Source: Sphingobium cloacae (GTDB lineage: Bacteria > Pseudomonadota > Alphaproteobacteria > Sphingomonadales > Sphingomonadaceae). Taken from it: 64,000 nucleotides of DNA. The position numbers and the translations under genes are program-made. The notes below the pieces were generated by a model. It ran no database searches. It saw only the letters and a list, made by a program, of their open reading frames with translations, and was not told where the DNA came from. Location: assembly GCF_002355855.1 (NCBI RefSeq), contig NZ_AP017655.1, forward strand, positions 2,476,001-2,540,000, written 5' to 3'. The stretch's first letter is position 1. The number at the start of each line of letters is the position of its first letter. Positions 4,844 to 64,000 of this stretch are shown here, in pieces.

Positions 4844-7255
4844 ATGGACATAGCCCTTCCCGATCCGCTGGAGCGATGGTTCGCGGATCGCGGCTGGACG
4901 CCCCGCCGCCATCAGCGCGACATGCTGGCCGCCGCGCGCCGGGGCGAACATGCGCTGCTGGTCGCGCCTACGGGGGCGGGCAAGACGCTGGCGGGGTTCC
5001 TGCCGACGCTCGCCGACCTGATCGAACGACCGGGGGAGGGGCTTCACACCCTCTATATCTCGCCGCTGAAGGCGCTGGCGGTGGACGTCCGCCGCAACCT
5101 CCTCACCCCCATTGAGGAGATGGACCTTCCCATCCGCGTCGAGACGCGCACCGGCGATACGCCCTCGGATCGCAAGGCCCGACAGCGCGCCCGGCCCCCG
5201 CAGATATTGCTGACCACGCCCGAATCGCTTTCGCTGCTGCTGAGCTATCCCGACAGCTTCCTGATGTTTTCCGGGCTGAAGACGGTCATCGTCGATGAAG
5301 TCCACGCCTTCGCGACGCAGAAGCGCGGCGATCTGCTCAACCTGTCGCTGGCGCGCTTGCAGGCGATCCATCCGGGCCTGCGCCGCGTGGCGCTGTCCGC
5401 CACGGTGGCGGATGTGGACGCCTATCGCGCCTGGCTCGCGCCCGATGGCGACATCGACACGGTGACACCGGTGCTGGGCGAGCAGGGCGCGGAGCCGAAT
5501 GTCGCGATCCTCATCCCCGAAGGGCGCATCCCCTGGTCCGGCCACTCCGGCAAATATGCCGCCCGGCAGGTAATGGAGGAGATCGAGCGGCGGCAGACCA
5601 CACTCGTTTTCTGCAACACGCGGGGGCTGGCGGAGCTGATCTTCCAGTCGCTCTGGGCGGTGAACGACGCCAACCTGCCCATCGCGATCCACCATGGCAG
5701 CCTGTCCATCGAGGCGCGGCGCAAGGTGGAAAGCGCCATGGCGGCGGGGAAGCTGCGCGGCCTTGTCGCGACCGCCAGCCTCGACCTGGGCGTCGATTGG
5801 GGCAATGTCGATTGCGTGATCCAGATGGGGGCGCCCAAGGGTTCGTCCCGCCTGCTCCAGCGCATCGGCCGCGCCAATCACCGGCTCGACATGCCCAGCG
5901 AGGCGATCCTGATCCCCGGCAACCGCTTCGAATATCTGGAGGCCCGCGCCGCGCTCGACGCCGTGGAATCGGGCGAGCGCGATACGGACGATTTCCGGCC
6001 CGGCAGCCTCGACGTGCTGGCCCAGCATGTGATGGCGATGGCCTGCGCCGCGCCCTTCCGCGAGGAGGCGTTGCTGGCCGAAGTCCGCTCCGCCATGCCC
6101 TACAGCGCGCTGACGGACGAAGCCTTCGCCAACGTCCTGCATTTCATCGAGGGTGGCGGCTATGCCCTGCGCGCCTATGACCGCTTCAAGCGCCTGACCC
6201 GCGATCCGGACGGCACATGGCGCGTATCCCATCCCCGGTTCATCCAGCAGCACAGGATGAACGCGGGCATCATCGTCGACCAGCCGGTGCTGGACGTGCG
6301 CTTCGCCAATGGGCGCAAGCTTGGCACGGTGGAGGAGGGCTTCGCCGCCACGCTGCGACCGGGCGACAGCTTCTTCTTTTCCGGCATGGCGCTGGAAGTG
6401 GTGCGGATGGACCTGACCGACCTCATCGTGCGCGCGACGGCCAAGCAGGCGCGGCTGCCAAGCTGGGGCGGCACGCGCATGGCCATGTCCACGCGGCTTG
6501 CCGACCGGGTGCGCCACTTCCTCGCCGCGCCGGAGGAATGGCACCGCTTCCCCGAGGATGTGCGCGAATGGCTGGCGATGCAGAAATACCGGTCCGCGCT
6601 GCCGCAGCCGGGGCAGCTCCTGGTCGAAACCTTCCCGCATGAGGGGCGGCATTATCTGGTCTGCTACAGTTTCGAAGGGTGGAACGCGCATCAGTCGCTG
6701 GGGATGCTGCTCACCCGGCGCATGGACGCGCAGGGGTTAATGCCGCTGGGCTTCGTGTCGAACGACTATGCGCTGGCGGTCTATGGGTTGAAACCCGTCA
6801 CCGATCCGCAGAGCCTCTTTTCCGCCGACATCCTTGACCATGAGTTCGTGGAATGGGTGGAAGAATCGAGCCTGCTCAAGCGCGCCTTTCGCGACGTGGC
6901 GGTGATTTCCGGCCTGATCGAGCGGCAGCATCCCGGCAAGCGCAAGACCGGGCGGCAGGTGACCTTCTCCACCGACCTCATCTATGACGTGCTGCGCAAA
7001 TATCAGCCCGACCATCTGCTGCTGAAAGCCGCATGGGCCGACGCCCGCGCGCGGATGACGGATGTGGGGCGTCTGGGCGACCTCATAGACCGGGCGGCTT
7101 CCACCATGCTGCATGTCGATCTGGATCGCGTCAGCCCGCTGGCGGTTCCGGTGCTGATCCTCATCGGGCGCGAGCAGGTGGCGCAGGCCGCGGCGGAGGA
7201 CGCCCTTCTGATCGAGGCGGAGGCGCTGGTGGCCGAGGCGATGCGGGCGGATTAG
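4844..7255 (+). CDS. Lhr-like DEXH-box helicase (ligase-associated DNA damage response type)
   Basis: Superfamily 2 helicase, 803 residues. Motif I APTGAGKT is at about 41-48, motif II DEVH at about 149-152 with the Lhr-type continuation 'AFATQKRGD', motif III LSATV near 186, and motif VI in 'QRIGRANHR' near 343. After the two RecA domains comes the long Lhr C-terminal region (winged helix and DUF4290-like parts). Length and order match the alphaproteobacterial 'ligase-associated DNA damage response DEXH box helicase'. The ATP-dependent ligase, exonuclease and PdeM-type phosphoesterase that usually accompany it are not in this window. Its stop overlaps the stop of the convergent small gene by 3 bp. 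Confidence 0.9.
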   Translation: MDIALPDPLERWFADRGWTPRRHQRDMLAAARRGEHALLVAPTGAGKTLAGFLPTLADLIERPGEGLHTLYISPLKALAVDVRRNLLTPIEEMDLPIRVETRTGDTPSDRKARQRARPPQILLTTPESLSLLLSYPDSFLMFSGLKTVIVDEVHAFATQKRGDLLNLSLARLQAIHPGLRRVALSATVADVDAYRAWLAPDGDIDTVTPVLGEQGAEPNVAILIPEGRIPWSGHSGKYAARQVMEEIERRQTTLVFCNTRGLAELIFQSLWAVNDANLPIAIHHGSLSIEARRKVESAMAAGKLRGLVATASLDLGVDWGNVDCVIQMGAPKGSSRLLQRIGRANHRLDMPSEAILIPGNRFEYLEARAALDAVESGERDTDDFRPGSLDVLAQHVMAMACAAPFREEALLAEVRSAMPYSALTDEAFANVLHFIEGGGYALRAYDRFKRLTRDPDGTWRVSHPRFIQQHRMNAGIIVDQPVLDVRFANGRKLGTVEEGFAATLRPGDSFFFSGMALEVVRMDLTDLIVRATAKQARLPSWGGTRMAMSTRLADRVRHFLAAPEEWHRFPEDVREWLAMQKYRSALPQPGQLLVETFPHEGRHYLVCYSFEGWNAHQSLGMLLTRRMDAQGLMPLGFVSNDYALAVYGLKPVTDPQSLFSADILDHEFVEWVEESSLLKRAFRDVAVISGLIERQHPGKRKTGRQVTFSTDLIYDVLRKYQPDHLLLKAAWADARARMTDVGRLGDLIDRAASTMLHVDLDRVSPLAVPVLILIGREQVAQAAAEDALLIEAEALVAEAMRAD

Positions 7256-7512
7256 GCGGGCGTTTCGACCAGCTCCGCGATCTCGAAGACATGGCTTTTC
7301 CAGCCGCGCATCCTTGCCGCTTCCTGCGTGGCGATGCGTTTCTTCTTCGTGTCGGCAAGGGAGCGGCCGTGGCCCCAGAAAACCTCCGTCTTGCCGTTCT
7401 CCAGTTCGGCGACGATGCGCCAATAATGGGTGAAGCTGTCGGTCGTCGGGCCGATGGTCTTCACATAGCCATCGGGCATGGTGGCCGTCAGATAGCGCCG
7501 TTTCTTCCCCAT
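7252..7512 (-). CDS. Conserved small protein of unknown function (86 aa)
   Basis: No family recognised with certainty. The 86-residue product starts 'MGKKRRYLTATMPDGYVKTIGP' in pieces and carries several Trp/His residues ('TDSFTHYWRIVAELENGKTEVFWGHG'), then a basic helix ('SLADTKKKRIATQEAARMRGW'). No signal peptide or membrane span. It is the last gene of the minus-strand set SCO-YcgN-YgjP, 4 bp after the protease stop, and meets the helicase tail to tail. Aromatic content and length are compatible with a small nucleic-acid- or protein-binding fold, which is only a guess. Confidence 0.7.
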   Translation of the reverse strand: MGKKRRYLTATMPDGYVKTIGPTTDSFTHYWRIVAELENGKTEVFWGHGRSLADTKKKRIATQEAARMRGWKSHVFEIAELVETPA

Positions 7513-11382: not shown

Positions 11383-11724
11383 TCATGAACAGATCGTTTC
11401 AGCGGCGAATCGTTCCGCTTCCGCGATATCAAGTTCGATTATCCACAGGTCGGGGTCCGCCCGGCGTCGGCGCTCAATATATTGTGCGAGCGCCAGCGGC
11501 CCCGCGTCGAGGGCGGGACCACAGGGGGCGAGCCGATAGCCGCCTTCATAGTCGGGAATCCGCTCGAACAGGCCGGTTTCCTGTCCCCTTTCCAGCGTCT
11601 GGACCAGTATGACGCCGCTGTTTTCGTCGCCCTTCACCAGCACCGTGGCGAAGCCGCCCGCCGCGGCGGCCCGCCGCACCAGCACGCCGATCAGCAGCGC
11701 GCTGGTCAGCCGGTCAGCCGCCAT
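11383..11724 (-). CDS. DUF1491 family protein
   Basis: A 113-residue cytoplasmic protein matching DUF1491, found mainly in alphaproteobacteria. Seen are 'LIGVLVRRAAAAGGFATVLVKGDENSG' in part (VRRAAAAGGFA, VLVKGD) and 'DPDLWIIELD', which are the family hallmarks. Function unknown. The start at 11724 lies inside the last codons of the thioesterase gene (11-bp overlap), so the two are probably coupled in the ptsN-thioesterase-DUF1491 set. Confidence 0.83.
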   Translation of the reverse strand: MAADRLTSALLIGVLVRRAAAAGGFATVLVKGDENSGVILVQTLERGQETGLFERIPDYEGGYRLAPCGPALDAGPLALAQYIERRRRADPDLWIIELDIAEAERFAAETICS

Positions 11725-15596: not shown

Positions 15597-16186
15597 GCCG
15601 CCAGAACGCCGCGCACGCGCAGAAAGTCAAGCAAAGGCAACAGGGGAAGCCCCTGAATCGCGAACTGGCTGCCTTCCACCTTCGCAAAGAGCTGCGCGCC
15701 CGGTCCCTCAATCCGATAGCAGCCGACGCACCAGCGGCATTCTTCCCAATCCGCGTCGAGATAGGACTGGATAAAGGCGTCGGACAAGGACCGCACCGTC
15801 ATCCGCACCCGTTCGACATGCCGCCAGATCGGTTCGCCGTTCAGCACGATCACCGCCGCGCTGTGGAGATGATGAACCCGGCCCGACAGCAGGCGCAGGA
15901 TGCGCTCCGCATCGGCCCGGTCGACCGCCTTGTCGATCATGCTTCCATCGTCGAGGCTCAAGGTCTGGTCGCATCCCAGCACCAGCGCGCCCGGCACCCG
16001 CCGCGACACGCGCAACGCCTTCAGTTCCGCCAGCGCATCGGCCAGCCCCCGTGCATCCAGGCCGTCGGCGCGCAGGGCTTCCTTCGCCGCCTCTTCGTCC
16101 ACGCCCGGCGAAAGGGCTTCGAACGGAACCTGCGCGGCGGCCAGCAGCGCCCTTCGGCTGGCGCTCTGGGAGGCGAGCACGATCAT
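15593..16186 (-). CDS. maf: Maf family nucleotide pyrophosphatase
   Basis: House-cleaning nucleoside triphosphate pyrophosphatase, 197 residues. The Maf signature SQSASRR is at about 6-12, with 'VLGCDQTLSLDD' and the basic/acidic residues of the active site further on. In the YceF branch rather than YhdE by look, not tested. ATGA overlaps with both ppsR upstream and aroE downstream indicate a tightly coupled operon. Confidence 0.92.
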   Translation of the reverse strand: MIVLASQSASRRALLAAAQVPFEALSPGVDEEAAKEALRADGLDARGLADALAELKALRVSRRVPGALVLGCDQTLSLDDGSMIDKAVDRADAERILRLLSGRVHHLHSAAVIVLNGEPIWRHVERVRMTVRSLSDAFIQSYLDADWEECRWCVGCYRIEGPGAQLFAKVEGSQFAIQGLPLLPLLDFLRVRGVLAA

Positions 16187-17013
16187 GCCTCGCTGCCTCC
16201 TTCGGCCAGAAGGCGGTCGTTGAACAGGTTGATGATGGCGGCGGCGGCTTCCTCGATGGAGCGGCGGCTCATGTCGATCACCGGCCAGCCATGGTCGGCG
16301 AACATGCGGCGCGCGAACGACAGTTCGTCCTGCACCTTCTCCAGATCGACATAGGCGGTCTCGGGCGCCTGATTGAGCGAGAGCAGCCGGTTGCGCCGGA
16401 TCTGGATCAGCCGTTCCGGGCTGACGGTCAGCCCCACGACCATCGGATGCCGCAGCGAAAAGAGGCTGCGCGGCGGCGGCGATTCCGGGACCAGCGGGAT
16501 ATTCGCGGTCTTGTAGCCGCGATTGGCGAGGTAGATGGAGGTCGGCGTCTTGGACGCGCGCGACACGCCCGCCAGCACGATATCGGCTTCCTCCCAATTT
16601 TCATGCCCGACGCCATCGTCATGGGCGATGGTGAACTGGATCGCCTCGATCCGCGCGAAATAGGCTTCGTCGAGGATATGCTTGCGCCCCGGCCGGTTGC
16701 GCGTTTCCTGCCCCAATATGTTGGAAAGCGCGTCCGTCACCGTATCGAGCGCCGCGACATGGGGCAGGCCCAGCGCCCGGCAGCGCGTTTCCAGCCTGCG
16801 CCGCAACTGGTGATTGTTGAGGGTGAAGAGCACCAGTCCGGGATTGGCGGAAATATCCTCCATGATCCGGTCGAGATGGACATCGGACCGCACCATGGGC
16901 CAGAAATGGCGGACCGCCTCCACATTCTCGAACAGGCCGATCGCCGCCTTGGCGATGTTTTCCAGCGTTTCCCCGGTGGAATCCGACAAAAGGTGCAGAT
17001 GGATGCGCGTCAT
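16183..17013 (-). CDS. ppsR: Pyruvate, water dikinase regulatory protein (PSRP)
   Basis: Bifunctional kinase/pyrophosphorylase of the DUF299 family, 276 residues, which switches PEP synthase or pyruvate phosphate dikinase. The N-terminal 'HLLSDSTGETLENIAKAA' (short: SDSTGETLE) and the ADP-binding loop 'GVSRASKTPTS' at about 145-155 are diagnostic. First gene of the minus-strand run from the putative origin; its start is 22 bp from the first perfect DnaA box. Confidence 0.93.
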   Translation of the reverse strand: MTRIHLHLLSDSTGETLENIAKAAIGLFENVEAVRHFWPMVRSDVHLDRIMEDISANPGLVLFTLNNHQLRRRLETRCRALGLPHVAALDTVTDALSNILGQETRNRPGRKHILDEAYFARIEAIQFTIAHDDGVGHENWEEADIVLAGVSRASKTPTSIYLANRGYKTANIPLVPESPPPRSLFSLRHPMVVGLTVSPERLIQIRRNRLLSLNQAPETAYVDLEKVQDELSFARRMFADHGWPVIDMSRRSIEEAAAAIINLFNDRLLAEGGSEA

Positions 17014-17034
17014 GGCGTATCTCTGTGGATGTCC

Positions 17035-17043
17035 TGTGGATAA
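17035..17043 (-). other. DnaA box, perfect
   Basis: TGTGGATAA, the reverse complement of the consensus TTATCCACA. Nearest box to ppsR. Confidence 0.85.
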
Positions 17044-17103
17044 AGCAAGGGAGAGAGTGGGGATGAAAGCATCCTCCTTGCTTCCTCCCTGTTGCCTCGA
17101 CTC

Positions 17104-17112
17104 TTATCCACA
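17104..17112 (+). other. DnaA box, perfect
   Basis: TTATCCACA, exact match to the consensus, directly preceded by a GANTC site (GACTC at 17099-17103). Confidence 0.85.
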
Positions 17113-17134
17113 GCCCTTCAACAGACCGTCCATT

Positions 17135-17155
17135 TCATCCACAGCCTGTGGATAG
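17135..17155. other. Pair of inverted near-consensus DnaA boxes
   Basis: TCATCCACA (17135-17143) and TGTGGATAG (17147-17155), each one base off consensus, face each other across a 3-bp spacer and form an imperfect palindrome. Confidence 0.7.
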
Positions 17156-17281
17156 CGGGGACAAGACCGATGACTCGGACGGGAAAGCATGGCCCGGCGG
17201 AGTCAAGCTGTTGGCAAAAGCGGGCATAGCGCATAAACCCCGCTGCCAACCGCCCATCTATCTCCATCATCCTTCAGACTC

Positions 17282-17299
17282 TTATTATAAGAAGAATAT
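17282..17299. other. AT-rich tract, possible unwinding element
   Basis: An 18-bp stretch with only three G/C bases right before the hemE start, in a genome segment near 65 percent GC. It could serve duplex unwinding at the origin or be part of the hemE promoter. Confidence 0.4.
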
Positions 17300-18361
17300 A
17301 TGTCCGGTTCCGATGTCGTGCCCAAGCCCTTGCTGGCTGTCCTCCAAGGCGAGCGGCGGGCAGTGCCGCCCATGTGGCTCATGCGCCAGGCAGGCCGTTA
17401 CCTGCCCGAATATCGCGAACTGCGCGCGCGAAAGGGCGGATTCCTCGAACTGGTCTATGACAGCGCGGCGGCGGCGGAAGTCACCCTTCAGCCGCTGCGC
17501 CGTTTCGGTTTCGACGGGGCGATCCTGTTTTCCGACATATTGATCGTGCCCTATGCCATGGGGCAGGACCTCTGGTTCGAGGCGGGCGAGGGACCACGCC
17601 TTGCCCCGATCCTCGGCGAGACGGCGCTGTCGGCGCTGAAACCCGACTGGAGCCGGTTCGACGCGGTCTATGAAACGGTGCGGCAGGTGAAGGCCGCGCT
17701 CGACCCCGATGTCACCTTCCTGGGCTTCGCGGGCAGTCCCTGGACCATCGCGACCTATATGGTGGCGGGGCAGGGCAGCAGGGATCAGGGCGCGGCCCGC
17801 CGCCTCGCCTATGGCGATCCCGCGCGGTTCGGCGCGATCATCGACGCCATCGTGGAGGCGACGGTCGTCTATCTGGACGGGCAGGTCCGCGCCGGGGTGG
17901 AAGCGGTGCAGCTTTTCGACAGCTGGGCGGGCAGCCTCGCCCCGCTTCAGTTCGAACGGTGGGTGATCGAGCCCAATGCGCGGATCGTGGAGAAGTTGAA
18001 GGCGCTGCACCCGACCATTCCGGTGATCGGATTCCCCAAGGGCGCGGGCGCGAAGCTGGCCGATTATGCGCGCGGCACGGGCGTCGATGCGGTCGGCGTC
18101 GATGAAACCGTCGATCCGCACTGGGCCGACCGCGCCCTGCCGGAAGGGTTGCCCGTGCAGGGCAATCTCGACCCGCTCGCCCTCATCGCCGGCGGCGAGG
18201 CGGTGGAGCGGGCCGTGGACAATATCCGCGCCGCCTTCGCGAACCGTCCCCATATCATGAATCTGGGCCATGGCATTTTGCCCGATACCCCCATTGATCA
18301 TGTCGAAGCATTGCTTAGCTATGTGCGAGCGAATGGTTCGCAGCGGAGGGAGACTGCCTGA
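17300..18361 (+). CDS. hemE: Uroporphyrinogen decarboxylase
   Basis: Converts uroporphyrinogen III to coproporphyrinogen III in heme synthesis; 353 residues, the usual length. The signature MRQAGRYLPEY is at about 28-38, with 'GFAGSPWTIATYM' near 140 and 'INLGHGILPDTP'-like 'MNLGHGILPDTP' near the end. The stop shares one base with the hemJ start (TGATG). Position beside the putative origin matches Caulobacter. Confidence 0.96.
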   Translation: MSGSDVVPKPLLAVLQGERRAVPPMWLMRQAGRYLPEYRELRARKGGFLELVYDSAAAAEVTLQPLRRFGFDGAILFSDILIVPYAMGQDLWFEAGEGPRLAPILGETALSALKPDWSRFDAVYETVRQVKAALDPDVTFLGFAGSPWTIATYMVAGQGSRDQGAARRLAYGDPARFGAIIDAIVEATVVYLDGQVRAGVEAVQLFDSWAGSLAPLQFERWVIEPNARIVEKLKALHPTIPVIGFPKGAGAKLADYARGTGVDAVGVDETVDPHWADRALPEGLPVQGNLDPLALIAGGEAVERAVDNIRAAFANRPHIMNLGHGILPDTPIDHVEALLSYVRANGSQRRETA

Positions 18362-19004: not shown

Positions 19005-19865
19005 TCAAGCGCGCGGATCCTGCTCCGGATCGACCGCGATATTGTCGATCAGGCGCGTCCGGCCCATTTTCGCCGCCCCCAGCAGCCGGGCGGGCCGGTC
19101 CAGCACCGTCATCGGCTCCAGCGTCACCGCATCGCATAGCGTCACATAGTCGATCGGATCGAATCCATGGCTCGCCAACATGGCGATCGCCTTGGCCAGC
19201 GCCGATTCCACGGTCGCGCCCTTCTCCATCTGCCGTTTCGCCTCTCCCAATGCGCGGGGAAGGGCCAGCGCCTGCTTGCGCTCTTCCTCGGTCAGATAGG
19301 CGTTGCGGGAGGAAAGGGCGAGCCCGTCCTCCGCCCGTTGGGTCGGCAGGCCGACAATCTCGATCGGCATGTCCAGATCGGCCACCATCTGCCGGATGAC
19401 GGCAAGCTGCTGATAGTCCTTTTCCCCGAACAGCGCGACATCGGGGCGGACCTGGTTGAAGAGCTTGGCGACGACCGTCGCCACGCCGTCGAAATGGCCG
19501 GGGCGGGCCGCGCCGTCCAGCCCCCCGGTCACGCCGGTGAGCGCGACATTGGTCGAAAAGCCCGCCGGATACATGACATCGACGCCGGGCGCCCAGAGAA
19601 TGTCCACGTCCGCTTCCTGCAACAGATGGGCGTCGCTCGCTTCCCGGCGGGGATAGGCGTCCAGATCCTCGTTGGGGCCGAACTGCCTGGGATTGACGAA
19701 GATCGACACGACGACATGCTTCGCCAGCCGCCGGGCTTCCTCCACCAGCGCCATGTGCCCGTCATGCAGCGCGCCCATGGTCGGCACCAGCGCCAGGGGT
19801 TTTCCATCGCTCCGCAGCGCGTTTATCGCAGCGCGAAGGGCGGGGAGGTCACGCAGGGTTTGCAC
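19005..19865 (-). CDS. panC: Pantoate--beta-alanine ligase
   Basis: Makes pantothenate from pantoate and beta-alanine, 286 residues. ATP-binding 'PTMGALHDGH' at about 28-37, 'VFVNPRQFGPNEDLDAYPR'-like 'IFVNPRQFGPNEDL', 'FGEKDYQQLAVI' and the 'LSSRNAYL' loop that corresponds to KMSKS. Single gene, divergent from mipZ; coaE at 14 kb is in the same pathway but not linked. Confidence 0.95.
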   Translation of the reverse strand: MQTLRDLPALRAAINALRSDGKPLALVPTMGALHDGHMALVEEARRLAKHVVVSIFVNPRQFGPNEDLDAYPRREASDAHLLQEADVDILWAPGVDVMYPAGFSTNVALTGVTGGLDGAARPGHFDGVATVVAKLFNQVRPDVALFGEKDYQQLAVIRQMVADLDMPIEIVGLPTQRAEDGLALSSRNAYLTEEERKQALALPRALGEAKRQMEKGATVESALAKAIAMLASHGFDPIDYVTLCDAVTLEPMTVLDRPARLLGAAKMGRTRLIDNIAVDPEQDPRA

Positions 19866-52100: not shown

Positions 52101-55183
<3,083 letters not shown>

Positions 55184-55187
55184 TCCC

Positions 55188-55751
55188 TTGAGCGGCGACG
55201 CCCTGCCTCGCTGCACCTGGGTGGGCGCGGATTCGCTCTATCGCGCCTATCATGACGACGAATGGGGCGTGCCGGAGCGGGATTCGCGGATGCTCTGGGA
55301 AACGCTGATGCTGGAGGGGTTTCAGGCGGGCCTCTCCTGGATCACGATCCTGCGCAAGCGGGAGGGGTTTCGCGCCGCCTTTGCGGGGTTCGACCCGGAC
55401 CGGGTGGCGGCCTTCGGCGCGGCGGATGTGGAGCGGCTGATGGCCGACCCGGGCATCGTGCGGGCGCGGGCGAAGATCGAGGCGACGATCCGGGGCGCGC
55501 GTATCTTTTGCGAGATGCGGGACCGGGGCGAGGATTTCGCGGACTATGTCTGGTCCTTTGTGGACGACCAGCCGATCCGGGGCGACGGGGTGACCGTCCA
55601 TGCCCAGACGCCCTTGTCGGCGGAGATTTCCAGGGAGCTCAAGAAGCGCGGATTCAAGTTCGTGGGGCCGACCATCGTCTATGCGTGGATGCAGGCGGTC
55701 GGGATGGTCAACGATCATGCGGCCCATTGCTTCCGGCGGGACGCGCTATGA
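55188..55751 (+). CDS. tag: DNA-3-methyladenine glycosylase I
   Basis: Base-excision glycosylase for 3-methyladenine, 187 residues. N-terminal zinc-type 'CTWVGADSLYRAYHDDEWGVP' (short: YRAYHDDEWG) and 'VNDHAAHCFR' near the C-terminus supply the zinc ligands; 'EGFQAGLSWITILRKRE' (short: FQAGLSWITIL) is the family hallmark. The start codon appears to be TTG, right after gyrB; no ATG would give a full N-terminus. Confidence 0.93.
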   Translation: MSGDALPRCTWVGADSLYRAYHDDEWGVPERDSRMLWETLMLEGFQAGLSWITILRKREGFRAAFAGFDPDRVAAFGAADVERLMADPGIVRARAKIEATIRGARIFCEMRDRGEDFADYVWSFVDDQPIRGDGVTVHAQTPLSAEISRELKKRGFKFVGPTIVYAWMQAVGMVNDHAAHCFRRDAL

Positions 55752-56284
55752 GGGTTGGGTTGCCCTTGCTGGCGGCGCTCGCTTTGGCGGGATGCGGCGG
55801 GGAGGATCGCGTTCCGGCGAACGAGGCGGGAGCGGGAGGCGCGGCGGTGAATGGGGCGTTGATCGCCGATCGTCGCGAAACCATGAACGAGATGGCGAAG
55901 GAAAAGGGATTTGAAAATCCCGCGCCGGCGGTTCCACGTGGAACGTCGGCCGTTTCCGATCCTGACCCCAGGCCGGAGCCGAGGGAGGTATCGGAATACC
56001 GGGCCATCGGGACGGAGCCTTTCTGGGCGGTGCGGGTGCGGGGGTCGGTGGCGACATTGGAGCGGCCGGACAAGCCCCCGGCCCGTTTTGCGGTGGCGCG
56101 GGCGGATGACCGGCGGACGGTGCGCTATCTGGGCGAGGAGTTCTCCATGACCGTCAGCGAGGGGCCTTGCAGCGACGGGATGAGCGATTCCATCTGGTCC
56201 GACCGGGTGCAGATCGCCTTCGGAGAAGGGACGCTGAAAGGATGCGGCGGCGAGCGGGACGACGGGGGCATGGGGCCGCCCTGA
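55748..56284 (+). CDS. Lipoprotein of the COG3650 type
   Basis: A 178-residue lipoprotein, lipobox LALAGC (Cys near 17). The C-terminal part 'YRAIGTEPFWAVRVRG', 'FSMTVSEGPCSDGMSDSIW' (short: EGPCSDGMSD) and 'GTLKGCGG' is the pattern of an uncharacterised envelope protein family (COG3650). Function unknown. ATGA overlap with tag, so gyrB-tag-lipoprotein look like one unit. The last residues are Gly/Asp-rich. Confidence 0.8.
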   Translation: MRVGLPLLAALALAGCGGEDRVPANEAGAGGAAVNGALIADRRETMNEMAKEKGFENPAPAVPRGTSAVSDPDPRPEPREVSEYRAIGTEPFWAVRVRGSVATLERPDKPPARFAVARADDRRTVRYLGEEFSMTVSEGPCSDGMSDSIWSDRVQIAFGEGTLKGCGGERDDGGMGPP

Positions 56285-56445
56285 GCGTTCCGGCCATGGT
56301 CCCTCGCCGAAGCGGAAACGACCCTGGCCTGAAACGCCTGTCCGCTCCTCCAAAAATGAACGCACCCGGTTTTGAGCGCAAGGAATGGGAGGCCCCGGCC
56401 CGCGCCATGCCCTAAATGGCTGGCTCCATCAGATGGAGTGGCAGG

Positions 56446-57198
56446 ATGAACAGGATAGACGGCAAGGTCGCCATCGTCACCGGCGCGAGTTCGGGCATCG
56501 GGAAAGCGGCCGCCATGCTCTTCGCCGCCAACGGGGCGTCGGTGGTGCTGGTCGCTCGCCGCCGGGAGGCGTTGGAACGGCTGGCGGGCGAGATCGAGGG
56601 GCGGGGCGGGCGAGCCGTCGCGATCGCCGGAGACGTGGCCGGGGAGAGCACGCATCGGGACGCGGTGGCCGCCGCGCAATCGGCCTTTGGCGGATTGGAC
56701 ATCGCCTTCAACAATGCGGGGCTGGTCGGCGCGATGAGACCGCTGGCCGAGATCGAGCCGCACGAGTGGGCGGAGGTGCTGGCGGTGAACCTGACCGCCG
56801 CCTTTCTGGGAGCGCGCGCGCAGATTCCCGCGATGCGGGAGCGGGGCGGCGGCGCGCTGCTGTTCACGGGCAGCTTTGTCGGGAACAGCGTGGGATTGCC
56901 GGGCATGAGCGCCTATGCGGCGGCGAAGGCGGGCCTGATGGGGTTGGTGCGCGGCATCGCCGCCGATTATGGCGCCGCCGGCATCCGCGCCAATGCCCTT
57001 TTGCCGGGAGGAACCGCGACCGGAATGGCCGGCGATGCGGCCCAGCGCGAATGGGCCGCCGGCCTGCACGCCATGAAGCGAATCGCCGAGCCGGAGGAAA
57101 TCGCGCAGGCCGCGCTGTTTCTGGTCAGCGGCATGGCGAGCTTCGTCACCGGGTCGGCGCTGTGGGCGGACGGAGGCAATGCCGCCGTGAAGCTGTGA
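56446..57198 (+). CDS. SDR family oxidoreductase
   Basis: Short-chain dehydrogenase of 250 residues. Cofactor loop 'TGASSGIGKAA' at about 12-22, 'NNAGL' near 87, catalytic Ser near 143 and YxxxK in 'YAAAKAGL' near 156-160. Arg/basic residues after the second strand ('VARRREALERL') suggest NADP preference. Start at 56446 has GGAG 7 nt before it; an in-frame ATG at 56416 is less likely. Substrate unknown. Confidence 0.9.
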   Translation: MNRIDGKVAIVTGASSGIGKAAAMLFAANGASVVLVARRREALERLAGEIEGRGGRAVAIAGDVAGESTHRDAVAAAQSAFGGLDIAFNNAGLVGAMRPLAEIEPHEWAEVLAVNLTAAFLGARAQIPAMRERGGGALLFTGSFVGNSVGLPGMSAYAAAKAGLMGLVRGIAADYGAAGIRANALLPGGTATGMAGDAAQREWAAGLHAMKRIAEPEEIAQAALFLVSGMASFVTGSALWADGGNAAVKL

Positions 57199-57210
57199 GG
57201 ATGGGGCGGG

Positions 57211-57891
57211 TCAGGCCGCCGGGCGCTCTCCGAACAGGGCCGTTCCCACGCGGATATCGGTCGCGCCCAGCATGATCGCGGTCTCGAAATCGCCGGACAT
57301 GCCCATGGAGAGCCGCTCCAGCCCTTCCTCCCGCGCCATCCTGGCGAGCAGGGCGAAATAGGGGGCGGGCTCTCCCTGCGCGGGGGGGACGCACATCAGG
57401 CCGAGAAGGGGAATGTCCGCCTGCCGCGCCGCCGCGATCAGCGCGGGGGTGTCGGCGATGGCGCAGCCGCCTTTCTGCTCTTCCGCCCCGATATTGACCT
57501 GGATGTAGCAGGGGACGCGGCGGCCTGCGGCGTCCATCGCCTTCGCCAGCGCGGCCAGTAGCGAGGGGCGGTCGAGCGAGTGGATCGCGTCGAACAGGGC
57601 CACCGCCTCCGCCGCCTTGTTGGATTGAAGCTGGCCGACCAGGTGCAGGGCGATGCCGGGATATTCCCCGCGCAGGGCGGGCCATTTGGCCTGCGCTTCC
57701 TGCACGCGGTTTTCGCCGAAGACGCGCTGGCCCGCTTCGATCAGGGGGCGGATGGCTTCGGCCTCCTGCATTTTCGAGACGGCGATCAGGCTGATGTCGC
57801 CGCCCTTGCGGCCCGTCAGGCGGGCGGCGCGGTCCATGGCGCTGGAAATGGCGGCGAGGCGGCCGGCGGCTTCTGTGATGGCGGTCGTCAT
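57211..57891 (-). CDS. YggS family PLP homeostasis protein
   Basis: PLP-binding protein of 226 residues in the YggS/PROSC family, which keeps free PLP in balance and affects amino acid pools. PLP lysine Lys40 in 'ISLIAVSKMQEA', then 'FGENRVQEAQAKWPAL', 'HLVGQLQSNKA' and 'LSMGMSGDFETAI' at the C-terminus are diagnostic. Convergent with the SDR gene, divergent from the ThiE-like gene. Confidence 0.94.
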   Translation of the reverse strand: MTTAITEAAGRLAAISSAMDRAARLTGRKGGDISLIAVSKMQEAEAIRPLIEAGQRVFGENRVQEAQAKWPALRGEYPGIALHLVGQLQSNKAAEAVALFDAIHSLDRPSLLAALAKAMDAAGRRVPCYIQVNIGAEEQKGGCAIADTPALIAAARQADIPLLGLMCVPPAQGEPAPYFALLARMAREEGLERLSMGMSGDFETAIMLGATDIRVGTALFGERPAA

Positions 57892-57914
57892 GGCGGCTGC
57901 TATAGGCGAGGGTC

Positions 57915-58469
57915 ATGGAGCATCGCCACCGCAAAAAGCTGCCGATTGTCTGGTTGATGACGGATGAGCGCGTGGACGAGGCAGTCCAGCTTGCCGCCGC
58001 CGCGCGATTGCCCAGGGGGCGGGGGGGCATCGTTTTCCGCCATTATCGCACGGGCGCGGAGGAGCGGCGGGCGTTGTTCATGCGGTTCCGGGCGATTGCG
58101 CGGCGGCGGCGGTTGCTGCTGATGCTGGGCGGGAGCGCGGGGCAGGCCGCGGACTGGGGCGCGGATGGCTGGCATGGCGGGGACCGTCGGCGCGGGCAGG
58201 GGAGGATGCTTCATAGCGTGGCCGCGCATGACGCGCGGGAGGTCGTGGCGGCGGGGAAAAGGAAGGCCGATTTCCTCTTCCTCTCACCCCTGTTTCCGAC
58301 GCGCTCCCATCCGGGCACGCGGGCGCTGGGCAAGGCGCGGTTCGCGATGCTGGCGCGGCAGGCCGGGATGCCGGTGATGGCGCTGGGCGGAGTGCGGGCG
58401 CGGGACCGGCGCTTGCTGCGCGGGCTGGGCGCGGCGGGGTGGGGGGCGATCGACGGGTTGCTGGGTTAG
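57915..58469 (+). CDS. Thiamine phosphate synthase/TenI-like protein
   Basis: A 184-residue TIM-barrel-like protein. 'PIVWLMTDERV', 'GIVFRHY' and 'LSPLFPTRSHPGTRALG' (the ThiE phosphate-loop analogue) with 'PVMALGGVRARD' place it in the ThiE/TenI superfamily. The central part is Arg- and Gly-rich and the ThiE pyrophosphate motifs are incomplete, so a catalytic thiamine phosphate synthase is not sure. Divergent from the YggS-type gene. Confidence 0.75.
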   Translation: MEHRHRKKLPIVWLMTDERVDEAVQLAAAARLPRGRGGIVFRHYRTGAEERRALFMRFRAIARRRRLLLMLGGSAGQAADWGADGWHGGDRRRGQGRMLHSVAAHDAREVVAAGKRKADFLFLSPLFPTRSHPGTRALGKARFAMLARQAGMPVMALGGVRARDRRLLRGLGAAGWGAIDGLLG

Positions 58470-58564
58470 GGTGAGGGAATTGGCTGGCGAAGACGGAGAG
58501 TGGAAATTCCGCGTTGGGGAAGCGGAGGATTGGTATTCCTCACCCCATTGTCCGTGGGCATCTC

Positions 58565-59794
58565 TCATTTTGCGATATCGAAAATATAGACTGTGGTCTC
58601 GCCGCTAATCCAAGCCTTTCGACCATCGCGGGAGAAGCCGACCGTGCATCCGCTTGTCGAAGGACGAGGTATCTGCTGAATGATCTTTCCTGAGGCCATC
58701 GATATGAGTGCGGTGGTCGATCGATGCTTTTCGCGAGGCATTGATATCAATGCATATCGACCATCAGGGCTGATCGCTGGAACGTCGCTACCGGAAAACT
58801 CCCTGGCGGTCCCCCTTAGCGACCAAATAATATTGCCGGTGGATAGCGATCGAAGCTCCGCTATTGGCCCGGTTTGTGGTGTCGGAGGTGGGCAATTCGG
58901 ATTTAGTTCACAGGTGGCTCCGGAGGCGCTCAAATTTTTCATCACGAGGACGTCGCGACCGTTGGGAGTCACCGTGAATTGGTGAACATATTTCGTTCCG
59001 AGTTGTAGGATCCGTGGCGCTTTGCCCTGCGTCCATACGACCCATCGATTAGATTGAAAGGCAATTAACGCAGTGATGATGCCCTTCGCATTCATGCTGT
59101 GCGATATCGCGCCTACTCTTGATTTCGTCGGAAGGTCGGGAATGGATGCGATAGCTGCAGCCTGCAAAACTTTACCGTTCAAAGCATCGACAAAGGCGAG
59201 AGTGGGATGAGGATCGTCATGTTCAGGCTTATACAGAAAGCCTTTCGTGCCAAAGGCCGCAATGGCGATGCCAGATTCGCCCATCCAATATAGCTCGTCG
59301 AGGGGACCAGCGGCATTTGCAAGCTTGGGTAACTGGCGAGCCGGTCCATTGACGGGGAAAAGATAGGGCTGAAGAGGGCCAAGAGCGAAACCGCTGGGCT
59401 TTGCTGTATTCTGCCTTACTCCCAGCACCGCCGATGAAGTCCTCAGCCAGTCAAAAGGCGGCTTGCCTAATGGGCCAGTTATGCGCCCCTGAAAGCGCGT
59501 CGTTGAAGGCTTGGGGCCAGTACGCACGATTGCAAGACCATTTATTGAGTCAAAAACAAAGAAATCACGCAAATCAGGGGATGGTTGCGGAGCGGTTCGC
59601 GGAAAATTGCTCGGCGGGATCGATAGACAGTAAACTTTCGAAAGGGAAAACGGACCCGCTCCTATCGGTTTCGCAGATGATAGCATCCGGCTATCATGTT
59701 TACCGCAGCCACTTGCCGTTGGAGCCGCCGAAGCCCCGGGCCAGCTGCACATGACTATAATCGCAAACAACAAGGAGAGCCGGACGCAAGGCAT
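58565..59794 (-). CDS. Secreted beta-propeller protein, AT-richer than neighbours
   Basis: No family recognised. About 409 residues from the ATG at 59794, with a signal peptide ('LLFAIIVMCSWPGASAAP', about 1-24). The rest shows recurring 'SPDGRYALISM', 'TPNGRDVLVMKNLSA', 'SRDGRKAWISGETTVYIFDI' blades typical of WD40/YVTN-like propellers. There is no Shine-Dalgarno before the chosen start. Base composition is clearly lower in GC (near 45-50 percent in parts) than the flanking genes at about 65, with codon use to match, a sign of acquisition. Confidence 0.75.
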   Translation of the reverse strand: MPCVRLSLLFAIIVMCSWPGASAAPTASGCGKHDSRMLSSAKPIGAGPFSLSKVYCLSIPPSNFPRTAPQPSPDLRDFFVFDSINGLAIVRTGPKPSTTRFQGRITGPLGKPPFDWLRTSSAVLGVRQNTAKPSGFALGPLQPYLFPVNGPARQLPKLANAAGPLDELYWMGESGIAIAAFGTKGFLYKPEHDDPHPTLAFVDALNGKVLQAAAIASIPDLPTKSRVGAISHSMNAKGIITALIAFQSNRWVVWTQGKAPRILQLGTKYVHQFTVTPNGRDVLVMKNLSASGATCELNPNCPPPTPQTGPIAELRSLSTGNIIWSLRGTAREFSGSDVPAISPDGRYALISMPREKHRSTTALISMASGKIIQQIPRPSTSGCTVGFSRDGRKAWISGETTVYIFDIAK

Positions 59795-60038
59795 ATGGAA
59801 TCCCGATACACTGCTGGAAGGTCTTCCTAGTCGGGTGTGATTATCCCTATGTGGTGAAGAATGGTTAATCACAAAATGCTGTGGCACTAGTGAGACCGGA
59901 TTCTTCCTGTGGGAAGCCGATATGATGTTATGAATGTCGAAATGGGCCGTACCGCCCATGGACGGCAACATCATCCATAACCTTTTTCAACAGGCCTTTT
60001 ACAAAAGAGCCATTTCCCGCTATTGGCATGGCATCCCT

Positions 60039-60050
60039 ATCCAACTGGAT
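60039..60050. promoter_or_regulatory. Inverted repeat just before the MocR gene
   Basis: ATCCAACTGGAT (ATCCA-AC-TGGAT), ending 9 bp before the start. Possible operator for MocR self-control. The 265-bp gap 59795-60059 also holds a TTAACCAT motif (59868-59861, minus strand). Confidence 0.3.
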
Positions 60051-60059
60051 CGCTTTGCC

Positions 60060-61523
60060 ATGTCCACATCCTTTCTGAGGCCGCCTTCCTTGCTCCGCTT
60101 GCTGGGGGCCTGGCGGGCGGAGGATAGTCCGGAGCCGGCCTATCGGCAGTTGGCGCAGGCCTTGCGGATGCTGGTGCTGGACGGACGGATCGGGCTGGAC
60201 GTGCGCTTGCCGGGGGAGCGGGAGCTGGCGGCGGCGCTGGGATTGAGCCGCACGACGGTGGCCGCCGCGTTCGACCGGCTGCGGGACGAGGGCTATCTGC
60301 AAAGCCGTCAGGGATCGGGCAGCGTGACGCGCCTGCCCGCCGGGCGGATCGAATCGGGCCAGCCGGAGATCGATCTGGGCAGCGGCGGCAATCTGCTCAA
60401 CTGGACCCATGCGGCGCTGCCCGCCGCGCCGGGGGTGGGGCGCGCGGTGCAGGCGGCGGCGGAGATGCTGCCCGCCTTTCTGGGCGATCTGGGTTACGAT
60501 CCTCTGGGGCTGCCGCCGCTGCGGCGCGCCATCGCGGCGGATTTCGAGCGGCGGGGATGCCCCACCAGCCCGGACCAGATCATCGTCACCAACGGCGCGC
60601 AGCAGGGCTTTGCATTGCTGGTGCAGTGGCTGGCGGGGCCGGGCGACCGGGCGGTGATCGATCATCCCACCTATCATAACGCGGTGCAGGCGTTGCAGCG
60701 CGCCCATGTCGTGCCGGTGCCGGTCGGCCTGCCCGCGCAGGGGTGGGACATCGACGCGATGGAGGCGGCTTTCCGCCAGACCGCGCCGCGCTTCGCCTAT
60801 GTGATCGCGGATTTCCACAACCCCACCGGGCGCAGCATGGACCCGGCGACGCGGCGGGCGCTGGTGCAGGCCGCCGCCGCCACGCACACGCCGCTCATCA
60901 TCGACGAGACGATGGTGGCGATGGGGCTGGACTTCGCGCCGCCGCCGCCGGTCGCGGTGCACGATCCTTCGGGGCGGCAGGTCATCACCATGGGATCGGC
61001 GAGCAAGATCTACTGGGGCGGGCTGCGGGTCGGCTGGATCCGCGCCGATCCGCAGACCATCGCGGCGCTGGGGCGGCTGCGCACGACCATGGACATGGCG
61101 AGCCCGGTGGTCGAGCAGCTCGCGGTCGCGCATCTGCTGGACGAAGGGGAGGGGCTGGGGGCGCGGGCCGACATGCTGCGGGAGCGGCGCGACCGGCTGC
61201 TGATGCTGCTGGAGGCGCATTTGCCGCACTGGCGGATCGAATCGCCGGCGGGCGGGCTTTCCTTATGGGCGGAGATGCCGCGCGCGGAGGCCACGGCGCT
61301 GGCGGCGCTGGCGGAAAGCCATGGCGTGCGGATCGCGGCGGGGCCGCGCTTTGGCGTGGGCGGCGCGTTCGAGCGGTTCCTGCGCCTGCCCTTCACCCTG
61401 TCGGAAGAGCAACTGGCGCTGGGCGTCGAGAGGCTGGCGCAGGCCGATGCGCGGCTCCATGCGCGGATGCCCGCGGGGCGCGATGCGGCGGCGCTGGCGC
61501 TGGAGGCGGATCGGTTGATTTGA
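60060..61523 (+). CDS. MocR-type transcriptional regulator (GntR HTH + aminotransferase domain)
   Basis: A 487-residue PLP-dependent regulator. The winged HTH of the GntR type is at about 15-80 ('YRQLAQALRMLVLDGRIGLDVRLPGERELAAALGLSRTTV', short LPGERELAAALGLSRTTV), and the fold-type I aminotransferase domain spans about 100-480 with the PLP lysine Lys316 in 'GSASKIYWGGLRVGW'. Start 60060 is chosen; upstream in-frame Met codons lack support. The membrane partner gene yczE that often stands next to MocR genes is absent; the divergent neighbour is the beta-propeller gene. Confidence 0.88.
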   Translation: MSTSFLRPPSLLRLLGAWRAEDSPEPAYRQLAQALRMLVLDGRIGLDVRLPGERELAAALGLSRTTVAAAFDRLRDEGYLQSRQGSGSVTRLPAGRIESGQPEIDLGSGGNLLNWTHAALPAAPGVGRAVQAAAEMLPAFLGDLGYDPLGLPPLRRAIAADFERRGCPTSPDQIIVTNGAQQGFALLVQWLAGPGDRAVIDHPTYHNAVQALQRAHVVPVPVGLPAQGWDIDAMEAAFRQTAPRFAYVIADFHNPTGRSMDPATRRALVQAAAATHTPLIIDETMVAMGLDFAPPPPVAVHDPSGRQVITMGSASKIYWGGLRVGWIRADPQTIAALGRLRTTMDMASPVVEQLAVAHLLDEGEGLGARADMLRERRDRLLMLLEAHLPHWRIESPAGGLSLWAEMPRAEATALAALAESHGVRIAAGPRFGVGGAFERFLRLPFTLSEEQLALGVERLAQADARLHARMPAGRDAAALALEADRLI

Positions 61524-61556
61524 AGGGGTGGATTGGCGACGGTTTGCTTTCCTAAC

Positions 61557-61678
61557 TTCGTTCGCCCTGAGGTGGGCTGAGCGAAGTCGAAGGCCCGTAT
61601 CGAAGGGTCTCCCTCGTGCACCCTGTCCTTCGATACGCCACTGCGACAAGCTCAGTGGCACCTCAGGACGAACGGTGA
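61557..61678. repeat. Long imperfect inverted repeat
   Basis: A 120-bp element whose two halves of about 50 bp are near reverse complements, sharing CGTTCG..CCTGAGGTG, CTGAGC..GTCG and GTATCGAAGG. Related REP-like palindromes with CCTGAG and TCGAAGG are common between sphingomonad genes. Rest of the gap between MocR and DUF4139 genes (61524-61803) is empty. Confidence 0.65.
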
Positions 61679-61803
61679 ATGAATTGCGAATGTACGCCTT
61701 ATGGCCGAAAGCACCCATCAACGCCGCATAATCGCTCTACGTGCTTTGCATCCGCGCCGGGATCAGGCAGAACGGCGGTAACGCCCGGAGGGAGCCGATC
61801 CTG

Positions 61804-63216
61804 ATGCATGCTATCCGACTGTTTTCGAGCCTGTTGTTCGCCTTGCCCGTCGCGGCCTTCGCGCAGGGGGCGGCTTCCGATCCGACGGGGGCTTCGGCGC
61901 AGGGGGATGTGTCGGTCACCATCTATAATGACGATCTCGCGCTGGTGCAGGATGTGCGGCAGATCGCCATTCCGGCGGGCATCCACCGGATCGAGTTTCC
62001 CGACGTGTCCGCGCAGATCAGGCCGGAAACGGTGTCCTTCGCGGCGGACGGCGCGTCCATCGTCGAGCAGAATTTCGATTTCGACCTGCTGTCCCCGGCC
62101 AAGCTGATGGAAAAGGCGGTAGGCAAGACCGTCACCATCGTCCGCACCAATCCCGCGACCGGCGCGGAAGTGCGCGAGCAGGCCAAGGTGCTGAGCGTCC
62201 ATGGCGGCACGGTGCTCCAGATCGGCAGCCGGATCGAGGTGCTGCGCGACGATGGCTTGCCGGTGCGGGTGATCTTCGACCGGGTGCCCGCCAATCTGCG
62301 GGCGCGGCCCACCTTGTCGGTGACAGTCGACAGCGCGCGGGGCGGGACGCGGCCCGCCGCCATCCGCTATCTGACGCCGGGCATCGGCTGGAGCGCGGAT
62401 TATGTCGCGCTGTTCGATGCGAAGGTGGGGCGGATCGACGTGCAGGGCTGGGTCACGCTGACCAACAATTCGGGCACGGCCTATGACAATGCGCGGACCT
62501 TGCTGGTCGCGGGGAGCGTCAACCAGAGCCGGTCCTCGCCGCGCTATCGCCCGGCGCGCCCGACCCCCATCCGCGCTGCGGGCACGGAGACGGCGGACCG
62601 CGAGCAGCTGGGCGACTTCTATCTCTATCCGCTGGCCGCCCGCACCACCATCGCGGAGCGGCAGACCAAGCAGGTGAGCTTCCTGGACGTGCAGGGCGTT
62701 CCGGCGAAGGCGGGCTATGCCTATGACAATGGGTGGCTGGGCAGTTCCAATGAGCCGCAGAGCGCGCGCAGCGTCGTCAGCTTCTCGACCTCGCGCAGCG
62801 GCGGGCTGGGCGATGCGCTGCCCGCCGGGACGGTGCGCTTCTATATGAAGGACGCGGCGGGCGCGCCGCAGTTCATCGGCGAGAATCAGGTCGGCCATAC
62901 GCCGATGGGGAGCGAACTGGCGCTGGCGACCGGCGACGCCTTCGACGTGAAGGTGAAGCCGGTGGTGGAACAGCGCGAGCGGCTGTCGTCGAACAAATGG
63001 CGGTCGCACATGCGCTATGACCTCAGCAATGCGAAGGCGGAGCCGGTGACGGTGGACCTCACCCAGTCGGGCCTCGACTTTTATCAGGACGACACGCGGA
63101 TCGTCAGCGAGAGCCAGCCGTCCCGCCGGGTGGACAGCAATGCGGCGCGCTGGACGGTGACGGTCCCGGCCAACGGCACCGCGACCGTCACGGCGATCTT
63201 CGAAACCCGCTATTGA
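61804..63216 (+). CDS. DUF4139 domain secreted protein
   Basis: A 470-residue secreted protein with signal peptide (about 1-21, 'LLFALPVAAFAQG'). DUF4139 with its N-terminal DUF4140-like part is recognised by 'SVTIYNDDLALVQDVRQI', 'LSVTVDSARGGTRPAAIRYLTPGIGWSADYVALF' (short: YLTPGIGWSADYVALF) and 'VTLTNNSGTAYDNARTLLVAG' (short: TNNSGTAYDNA). Function unknown. A GGAGGGAG stretch lies before the start. Its paralogue begins 8 bp after its stop. Confidence 0.85.
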   Translation: MHAIRLFSSLLFALPVAAFAQGAASDPTGASAQGDVSVTIYNDDLALVQDVRQIAIPAGIHRIEFPDVSAQIRPETVSFAADGASIVEQNFDFDLLSPAKLMEKAVGKTVTIVRTNPATGAEVREQAKVLSVHGGTVLQIGSRIEVLRDDGLPVRVIFDRVPANLRARPTLSVTVDSARGGTRPAAIRYLTPGIGWSADYVALFDAKVGRIDVQGWVTLTNNSGTAYDNARTLLVAGSVNQSRSSPRYRPARPTPIRAAGTETADREQLGDFYLYPLAARTTIAERQTKQVSFLDVQGVPAKAGYAYDNGWLGSSNEPQSARSVVSFSTSRSGGLGDALPAGTVRFYMKDAAGAPQFIGENQVGHTPMGSELALATGDAFDVKVKPVVEQRERLSSNKWRSHMRYDLSNAKAEPVTVDLTQSGLDFYQDDTRIVSESQPSRRVDSNAARWTVTVPANGTATVTAIFETRY

Positions 63217-63224
63217 GCGGCGTC

Positions 63225-64000
63225 ATGCGGCGCTGGCTCCTTTTGCTGCTTGCCGCCCTGCCCGCGCCGGTGGGCGCGCAGGCGGTCGTCACCTCGGCCG
63301 CACCCGAATCGGTGTCGGTGACGGTCTATCGCGATCCCGAACGGGGCGAGGGCGCCATCGACGCGCAGTTTCCCGAAGGGTTCGCGCTGGTCAGCGAGAA
63401 AAGGCGAATCACGCTTCCGGCAGGCGAATCGACCATCCGGTTCGAGGGCGTGGCGGACGGCATGATCGCGGTCAGCGCCGTGGTGACGGGCCTGCCGGGC
63501 GGGGTCGTGCAGAAGAATCGCGACGCGAAGCTGCTGTCGCCCGCCGCCCTGGTGGACGGGACGCTGGGCCGGGCGGTGCATCTGCGCCGCACCGATCCGG
63601 CGACGGGCAAGGTGACGGAACAGGACGCGATCATCCGATCCGCCTCCAGCCAGGCGCTGGTGCTGGAAACGGCGCAGGGGGTGGAGGGGCTGCGCTGTTC
63701 CGGCCTGCCGGAAACGCTGAGCTATGATTCGCTGCCGGCGGACCTGTCGATCCGTCCCACGCTGTCGGTGACGACGCAAAGCCCGGCGGCGGGCGAGGCG
63801 GAGGTGACGCTGACCTATCTTTCGACCGGATTCGACTGGGCGGCCCATTATGTGGCGCGAATCGGGGCGGACGGGCGGACGATGGACCTGTTCGCCTGGC
63901 TCACGGTCGCCAACGGCAACGGGACGGGCTTTGCGCAGGCCGGCCTGCTGGCGGTGGCGGGGCGGCTCAACCGGACCTCGGATCATGATTCGCTGGAGGA
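63225..64000 (+). CDS. Second DUF4139 domain secreted protein, partial
   Basis: Starts at the ATG at 63225 and runs off the window end, at least 258 residues. Signal peptide 'WLLLLLAALPAPVGAQA' (about 1-18). Same fold as the upstream gene: 'VSVTVYRDPERGEG', 'LSVTTQSPAAGEAEVTLTYLSTGFDWAAHYVARI' (short: YLSTGFDWAAHYVA) and 'LFAWLTVANGNGTGFAQAGLLAVAG' (short: WLTVANGNGTGFAQA). The two are diverged tandem paralogues in one operon. Confidence 0.85.
   Translation, partial: MRRWLLLLLAALPAPVGAQAVVTSAAPESVSVTVYRDPERGEGAIDAQFPEGFALVSEKRRITLPAGESTIRFEGVADGMIAVSAVVTGLPGGVVQKNRDAKLLSPAALVDGTLGRAVHLRRTDPATGKVTEQDAIIRSASSQALVLETAQGVEGLRCSGLPETLSYDSLPADLSIRPTLSVTTQSPAAGEAEVTLTYLSTGFDWAAHYVARIGADGRTMDLFAWLTVANGNGTGFAQAGLLAVAGRLNRTSDHDSLE

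Follow-up and report, generated by a model that had tools for sequence, protein, structure and literature searches.

Where on its chromosome does Sphingobium cloacae start replication? The question is raised by a 286-bp gap between a ppsR-type gene and hemE, at positions 17014-17299 of the window (the whole stretch of 64,000 nucleotides analysed, C1:2,476,001-2,540,000), which corresponds to C1:2,493,014-2,493,299. The chromosome C1 has 3,767,292 bases, in an assembly of 4.55 Mb. This gap is very probably the chromosome's replication start site. The best explanation of the data, and one that we regard as highly probable, is that the gap serves the 3.77-Mb chromosome as a hemE-linked origin of the alphaproteobacterial type, with DnaA driving it and two forks leaving. 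The features that bear on this reading are as follows.

16183 to 17013, minus strand: ppsR-type gene (Kinase-PPPase, PF03618), profile match
17014 to 17299, unstranded: candidate oriC, the whole ppsR-hemE intergenic gap, from its box cluster and the conserved divergent gene pair
17024 to 17032, minus strand: weak DnaA-box-like site TGTGGATGT, two mismatches, read by eye, poorly kept in the alignment rows inspected
17035 to 17043, minus strand: perfect DnaA box TTATCCACA, motif scan, nearly invariant in the 81-row alignment (S. cloacae plus the best 80 of 539 candidate hemE loci)
17104 to 17112, plus strand: perfect DnaA box TTATCCACA, core TCCACA kept and first bases variable in the same 81 rows
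17135 to 17143, plus strand: DnaA box, one mismatch, motif scan and alignment, faces the box at 17147-17155
17147 to 17155, minus strand: DnaA box, one mismatch, motif scan and alignment, 3 bp from the facing box at 17135-17143
17300 to 18361, plus strand: hemE, uroporphyrinogen decarboxylase, TIGR01464 above cut-off
55931 to 55944, unstranded: parS site, one of four perfect sites in the genome, motif scan

The original prediction had placed two perfect DnaA boxes, two near-perfect boxes facing each other and one weaker box in the gap, and all of them were found. With up to one mismatch allowed, 72 boxes occur in 1,240,000 sampled bases of the S. cloacae genome, and the gap is the sole spot in that 1.24-Mb sample with at least three of them in 500 bp. 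The whole 4.55-Mb assembly holds 14 perfect boxes, and the two in the gap are the only close pair. The same was seen in two relatives, G010 and G114 (Sphingobium sp. 15-1), where the homologous gap is again the sole cluster of at least three boxes in 400 bp within the 400 kb around it. A lone perfect box lies at 11439-11447, 5.6 kb left of the S. cloacae gap.

Profile searches bore out the identities that had been claimed for the neighbouring genes (hemE, maf, aroE, coaE, a dnaQ-type exonuclease and a ppsR-type kinase/pyrophosphorylase). The ppsR-type product scores 150.5 bits with the stricter NCBIfam PpsR model, which has a cut-off of 350, and lies above the cut-off of the broader subfamily model. 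We take this gene beside hemE to be of the type that goes by the name RP001. The genes on both sides had also been said to point away from the gap. This holds for the divergent ppsR and hemE, but the right-hand ORF at 19005-19865 faces back toward it.

Relatives were sampled as the best 80 of 539 candidate hemE loci, and these are near relatives, mostly Sphingobium. HemE is 92% identical in the top two of the 539, S. faniae and S. wenxiniae. The divergent ppsR-hemE pair is present in 80 of these best 80, with 275-420 nt to the hemE alignment start. When the S. cloacae gap is added to the best 80 of 539, at least one perfect box is found in 73 of the 81 gaps, and at least three boxes with up to one mismatch in 69. 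In a class-wide set, hemE was matched in 93 of 114 genomes, and loci were taken from the best 30, one of them the S. cloacae genome itself. Among the remaining 29 of these best loci, 25 have a divergent ppsR-hemE gap (327-680 nt) and four have no ppsR nearby. At least one box with up to one mismatch occurs in 21 of those 25 gaps from distant class members, and none in the other four.

The parABS system lies close by. The best ParB match (124 bits) is at C1:2,471,265, 21.5 kb from the gap, and the assembly contains only four perfect parS sites (C1 2,467,815; 2,469,761; 2,470,267; 2,531,931), all within 39 kb of it. Only the last of these falls in the window, the first three being located beyond its left end, 22.7-25.2 kb from the gap. 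The linkage recurs in the relatives, with four perfect parS sites 33-54 kb from the homologous gap in G114 and two at 6-9 kb in G010.

Strand polarity was read from KOPS, for which we used the E. coli motif GGGNAGGG. KOPS are polarised in S. cloacae, against 169 versus 159 for the control motif GGGANGGG. In the best fit (origin at 2.37 Mb, terminus at 0.86 Mb) 254 of 328 are co-oriented, compared with 244 of 328 when the origin is set at the gap and 208 of 328 when it is set at dnaA. Under a model of uniform polarity, the gap lies 11.5 lnL units below the best position of 2.37 Mb (preferred range 2.37-2.40 Mb). The KOPS minimum is at 2.368 Mb, 125 kb left of the gap. In the two relatives, the switch falls at the homologous gap. 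KOPS of G010 number 6 forward and 32 reverse on the left and 27 and 6 on the right, with the minimum 0.9 kb from the gap, and those of G114 number 14 and 39 on the left and 31 and 22 on the right, with the minimum at 10.7 kb.

The displacement in S. cloacae is probably an effect of rearrangement, because the blocks that are inverted relative to G114 hold the contrary KOPS. The flanks of the two genomes are reshuffled, and the S. cloacae segment 2,458,420-2,483,253, which includes parABS, lies inverted with respect to hemE, and the same holds for four more blocks on its left. Left of the gap, the inverted blocks carry 14 forward and 6 reverse KOPS, the collinear blocks 6 and 9, and the unaligned remainder 7 and 19. 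When the inverted blocks are re-read in G114 orientation, the left side becomes 19 forward and 42 reverse. Either of the two genomes may be the rearranged one. An inversion containing the origin was also considered and rejected by reasoning: inversion of left-arm blocks fits the shift, whereas one that spans the origin leaves polarity relative to the origin unaltered. Synteny breakpoints against Sphingobium sp. 15-1 lie at about 7253-7257 of the window, and blocks beyond 40.7 kb (40696 onward) are shuffled. The orientation of parB in G010 differs yet again.

GC skew did not behave as predicted. A cumulative minimum had been expected at about 17.1 kb of the window; in a contiguous 320 kb it was found 76 kb to the left, at 2.417 Mb. 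Of the three genomes, two have their local minimum to the left of the gap, by 76 kb and 49 kb, and one has it where the stretch ends. Over 60 stretches of sampled chromosome, mean leading-strand GC skew hardly departs from zero (0.0057 ± 0.0044), and the grid position that fits best is not that of the gap, so GC skew was discarded as a locator. Coding-strand bias was discarded too, being weak and ranking the gap 35th of 151 grid positions. The orientation of rRNA operons gave no reading, as RF00177 was unmatched in the S. cloacae genome and matched in just 9 of 14 control genomes. Within the window, GC skew stays positive over positions 53001-64000 (as much as 0.20 per kb window), and a kilobase of low G+C (52%) lies there at 59-60 kb. 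This analysis fixes the probable origin of a chromosome on which GC skew is no guide; it also shows that KOPS polarity in relatives can serve as a locator.

Could the gap be a mere conserved divergent promoter region, with DnaA-regulated ppsR and hemE promoters, and the true origin lie 70-125 kb to the left? The S. cloacae minima of KOPS (2.368 Mb) and local GC skew (2.417 Mb) would agree with this, as would the conserved promoter-like element ahead of hemE described below. We consider it very unlikely all the same: the contiguous 2.28-2.60 Mb of C1 contains no second box cluster, KOPS reverse within 11 kb of the homologous gap in two other genomes, and the displacement in S. cloacae follows the blocks inverted relative to G114. 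An origin at dnaA, as in many other bacteria, is scarcely credible here. The assembly does start at dnaA (C1:364), but such a start is an assembly convention. The dnaA gene lies 1.27 Mb from the gap, and an origin there fits KOPS 40 lnL units worse than the best and puts parABS 1.3 Mb away. Nowhere in the opening 20 kb of C1 do two boxes come within 500 bp of each other. A dnaA gene remote from the origin is common in Sphingomonadales, according to the available part of PMC8116508.

The reading of the gap as an origin is therefore well supported, by the box cluster, the parABS linkage, the conservation in 80 of the best 80 of 539 loci and the KOPS reversal in two genomes. Of the original prediction, it is the GC-skew test that fails and the inference about CtrA that is weaker. 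A hemE-linked origin for sphingomonads is already published, so that the result is strong but ordinary. According to the accessible text of PMC4741004, which gives no GANTC count, origins in sphingomonads sit near hemE and possess conserved boxes together with a candidate unwinding element; for the conserved cluster it cites Brassinga 2001. The Sphingomonadaceae origins described there (Sphingopyxis granuli TFA, which belongs to another genus than Sphingobium, and DoriC entries) share with ours the hemE-proximal place, the gene order, several conserved boxes and the AT-rich candidate unwinding element. The origin of Novosphingobium sp. PP1Y, in the part of PMC4059872 available, is likewise an Ori-Finder prediction close to hemE with three DnaA boxes. 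It is also near a dnaA gene, in contrast to S. cloacae.

If the gap is an origin, its DNA may serve both initiation and transcription. Two further features lie on the hemE side.

17202 to 17239, plus strand: conserved GTCAAGCTGTTGGCA, then N17 and TAA, putative hemE promoter with -35 TTGGCA at 17211-17216 and -10 TAAACC at 17234-17239
17279 to 17299, unstranded: AT-rich tract (81% A+T), candidate unwinding element and putative hemE ribosome-binding region

We propose that DnaA would bind the boxes at 17035 and 17104 and the facing pair at 17135/17147, and that the assembled DnaA would melt the AT-rich tract beside hemE. Helicase would be loaded and two forks would depart, to meet near a dif-like site at C1:858,044. 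The AT-rich tract had been predicted, and the final 21 bases before hemE are indeed 81% A+T; the last 40 nt before hemE average 67% A+T over the 81 loci (S. cloacae plus the best 80 of 539). A regex search found no DnaA-trio-like repeats. An exact-type dif pattern with up to three mismatches matched nothing in the whole S. cloacae genome. When the scan was relaxed and based on the arms, two matches turned up in the sampled 1.24 Mb, of which only C1:858,044 is dif-like (16 of 20 arm positions, 21 of 26 overall), and the second KOPS switch of S. cloacae, at 860 kb, coincides with it.

The gap would double as the hemE promoter region. TTGGCA-N17-TAA occurs in 73 of the 81 gaps and GTCAANNTGTTGGC in 75 of the 81 (again S. 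cloacae plus the best 80 of 539). The latter, as an exact match, and the exact 15-mer at 17202-17216 each occur once in the S. cloacae genome. The segment 17202-17216 may be a promoter element or the binding site of some other factor. It is better conserved than most of the DnaA boxes. We also considered an RNA element before hemE, a hairpin at 17210-17250 with a folding z of -2.09 (7 of 200 shuffles fold equally well). It was rejected in favour of the promoter because its second arm is not kept in several alignment rows (L102, for example) and an Rfam search before hemE returned just two matches, both far under gathering scores.

The absence of TTAA-N7-TTAA from the gap, reported in the original prediction, was confirmed even with one mismatch allowed, and the gap is therefore not assigned to the CtrA-gated Cori subtype. 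The hemE neighbourhood is a feature that the gap shares with Caulobacter Cori, as cited in PMC4741004. Cori also resembles the gap in its par-gene linkage and the GANTC motifs within the origin (available parts of PMC4468827 and PMC3973325), but it has five high-affinity CtrA sites (PMC4468827, same part).

The further step, that replication is not CtrA-gated here, agrees with the missing motif and less well with the relatives. One full motif each is present in six of the 81 gaps from S. cloacae and the best 80 of 539 (L053, L067, L083, L085, L086 and L091), all labelled Sphingobium. Five lie in the AT tract or immediately ahead of hemE; the sixth (L086), by context, is in that tract as well. 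Shuffling of whole gaps gave an expectation of 0.18, a procedure that makes chance look too small inside an AT-rich tract. Sites of the CtrA type are gained and lost in this tract near hemE, so their absence in S. cloacae says little about timing. The available text of PMC8116508 states that CtrA influences replication in Sphingomonas melonis and cites ctrA as dispensable there, and that of PMC2877005 has Sphingomonadales retaining the CckA-ChpT-CtrA relay. The six motifs and the Sphingomonas melonis statement would favour direct CtrA gating at this origin, with half-sites or degenerate sites of the AT tract as its means. We think this quite unlikely: the six loci are kin, a full site is missing from the other 75 of the 81 gaps, and S. 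cloacae has none even at one mismatch, against the five of Caulobacter.

The gap also holds four GANTC (CcrM-type) sites, absent from the original prediction. Conservation is given as alignment rows of the 81 (S. cloacae plus the best 80 of 539).

17099 to 17103, unstranded: GANTC site, column kept in 31 of 81 rows
17172 to 17176, unstranded: GANTC site, the most kept, 75 of 81 rows
17200 to 17204, unstranded: GANTC site, 54 of 81 rows
17277 to 17281, unstranded: GANTC site at the edge of the AT tract, 45 of 81 rows

Within the S. cloacae genome alone, four sites are a high count yet not a unique one: at least four occur in 0.27% of 286-bp windows and in 4 of 176 other intergenic gaps of 150-500 bp (genes called with a home-made codon model). 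Across the 81 gaps of S. cloacae and the best 80 of 539, whose rows are related and whose counts are thus not independent, the total is 400, with 113.7 expected from dinucleotide shuffles and 52.5 from the flank rate. In these 81 loci GANTC occurs at 15.7 per kb in the gaps, 4.1 in other intergenic DNA and 2.05 in the flanks overall. The enrichment of gap over flank, 7.65-fold, is the top of 16 motif classes, with AGNCT the runner-up at 3.48-fold. No window of equal size matches the gap's count in 57 of the 81 loci, and at least one does in 24. The sites are spread over 56 alignment columns, and the mean per gap in this set is 8.4 in Sphingomonas (n = 10), 4.9 in Sphingobium (n = 46) and 2.4 in Sphingorhabdus (n = 5). 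Among the distant class members (best 30 of 93 loci), GANTC is denser in the gap than in the rest of the locus in 22 of 25.

A methyltransferase to go with these enriched sites is present as well: the genome encodes a CcrM-type protein with a RAMA domain (614.9 bits with the NCBIfam CcrM model, under its cut-off of 830) and a GcrA family protein. The oriC of Escherichia coli carries a cluster of GATC methylation sites that are served by Dam and SeqA. It thus resembles the gap in having methylation sites clustered inside the origin, with Dam and GATC in the place of CcrM and GANTC. The GANTC sites may serve hemE and ppsR transcription through GcrA, since GANTC is over-represented between genes generally in this class (available part of PMC3973325), or they may act on initiation. 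A tentative proposal, which is probably not correct, is that in sphingomonads, mostly devoid of full CtrA sites at the origin, CcrM methylation of a conserved oriC GANTC cluster times or limits re-initiation, either directly or via GcrA-dependent hemE transcription across the origin. This would be a Dam/SeqA-like logic built from unrelated parts. If the cluster does act on initiation, origins timed by methylation would be known from a second case, independent of the first, in bacteria able to do without ctrA, as cited for Sphingomonas melonis.

Caulobacter data speak against methylation controlling initiation, and we therefore treat the cluster as a lead. Replication control stayed normal in a Caulobacter ccrM deletion, and initiation control there needs no CcrM (PMC3973325). 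In the literature searched we met no GANTC cluster in the origins of sphingomonads, a weak absence since subscription journals were scarcely covered, and the dense, conserved set in these origins is apparently new.

Elsewhere in the genome, two or more genes that we label IstB-like ATPases by inference occur in many copies on C1, C3, C4 and C6. Thirteen of the copies on C1 and C3 have identical scores and frames of 284 aa. Their copy number suggests a heavy load of insertion sequences.
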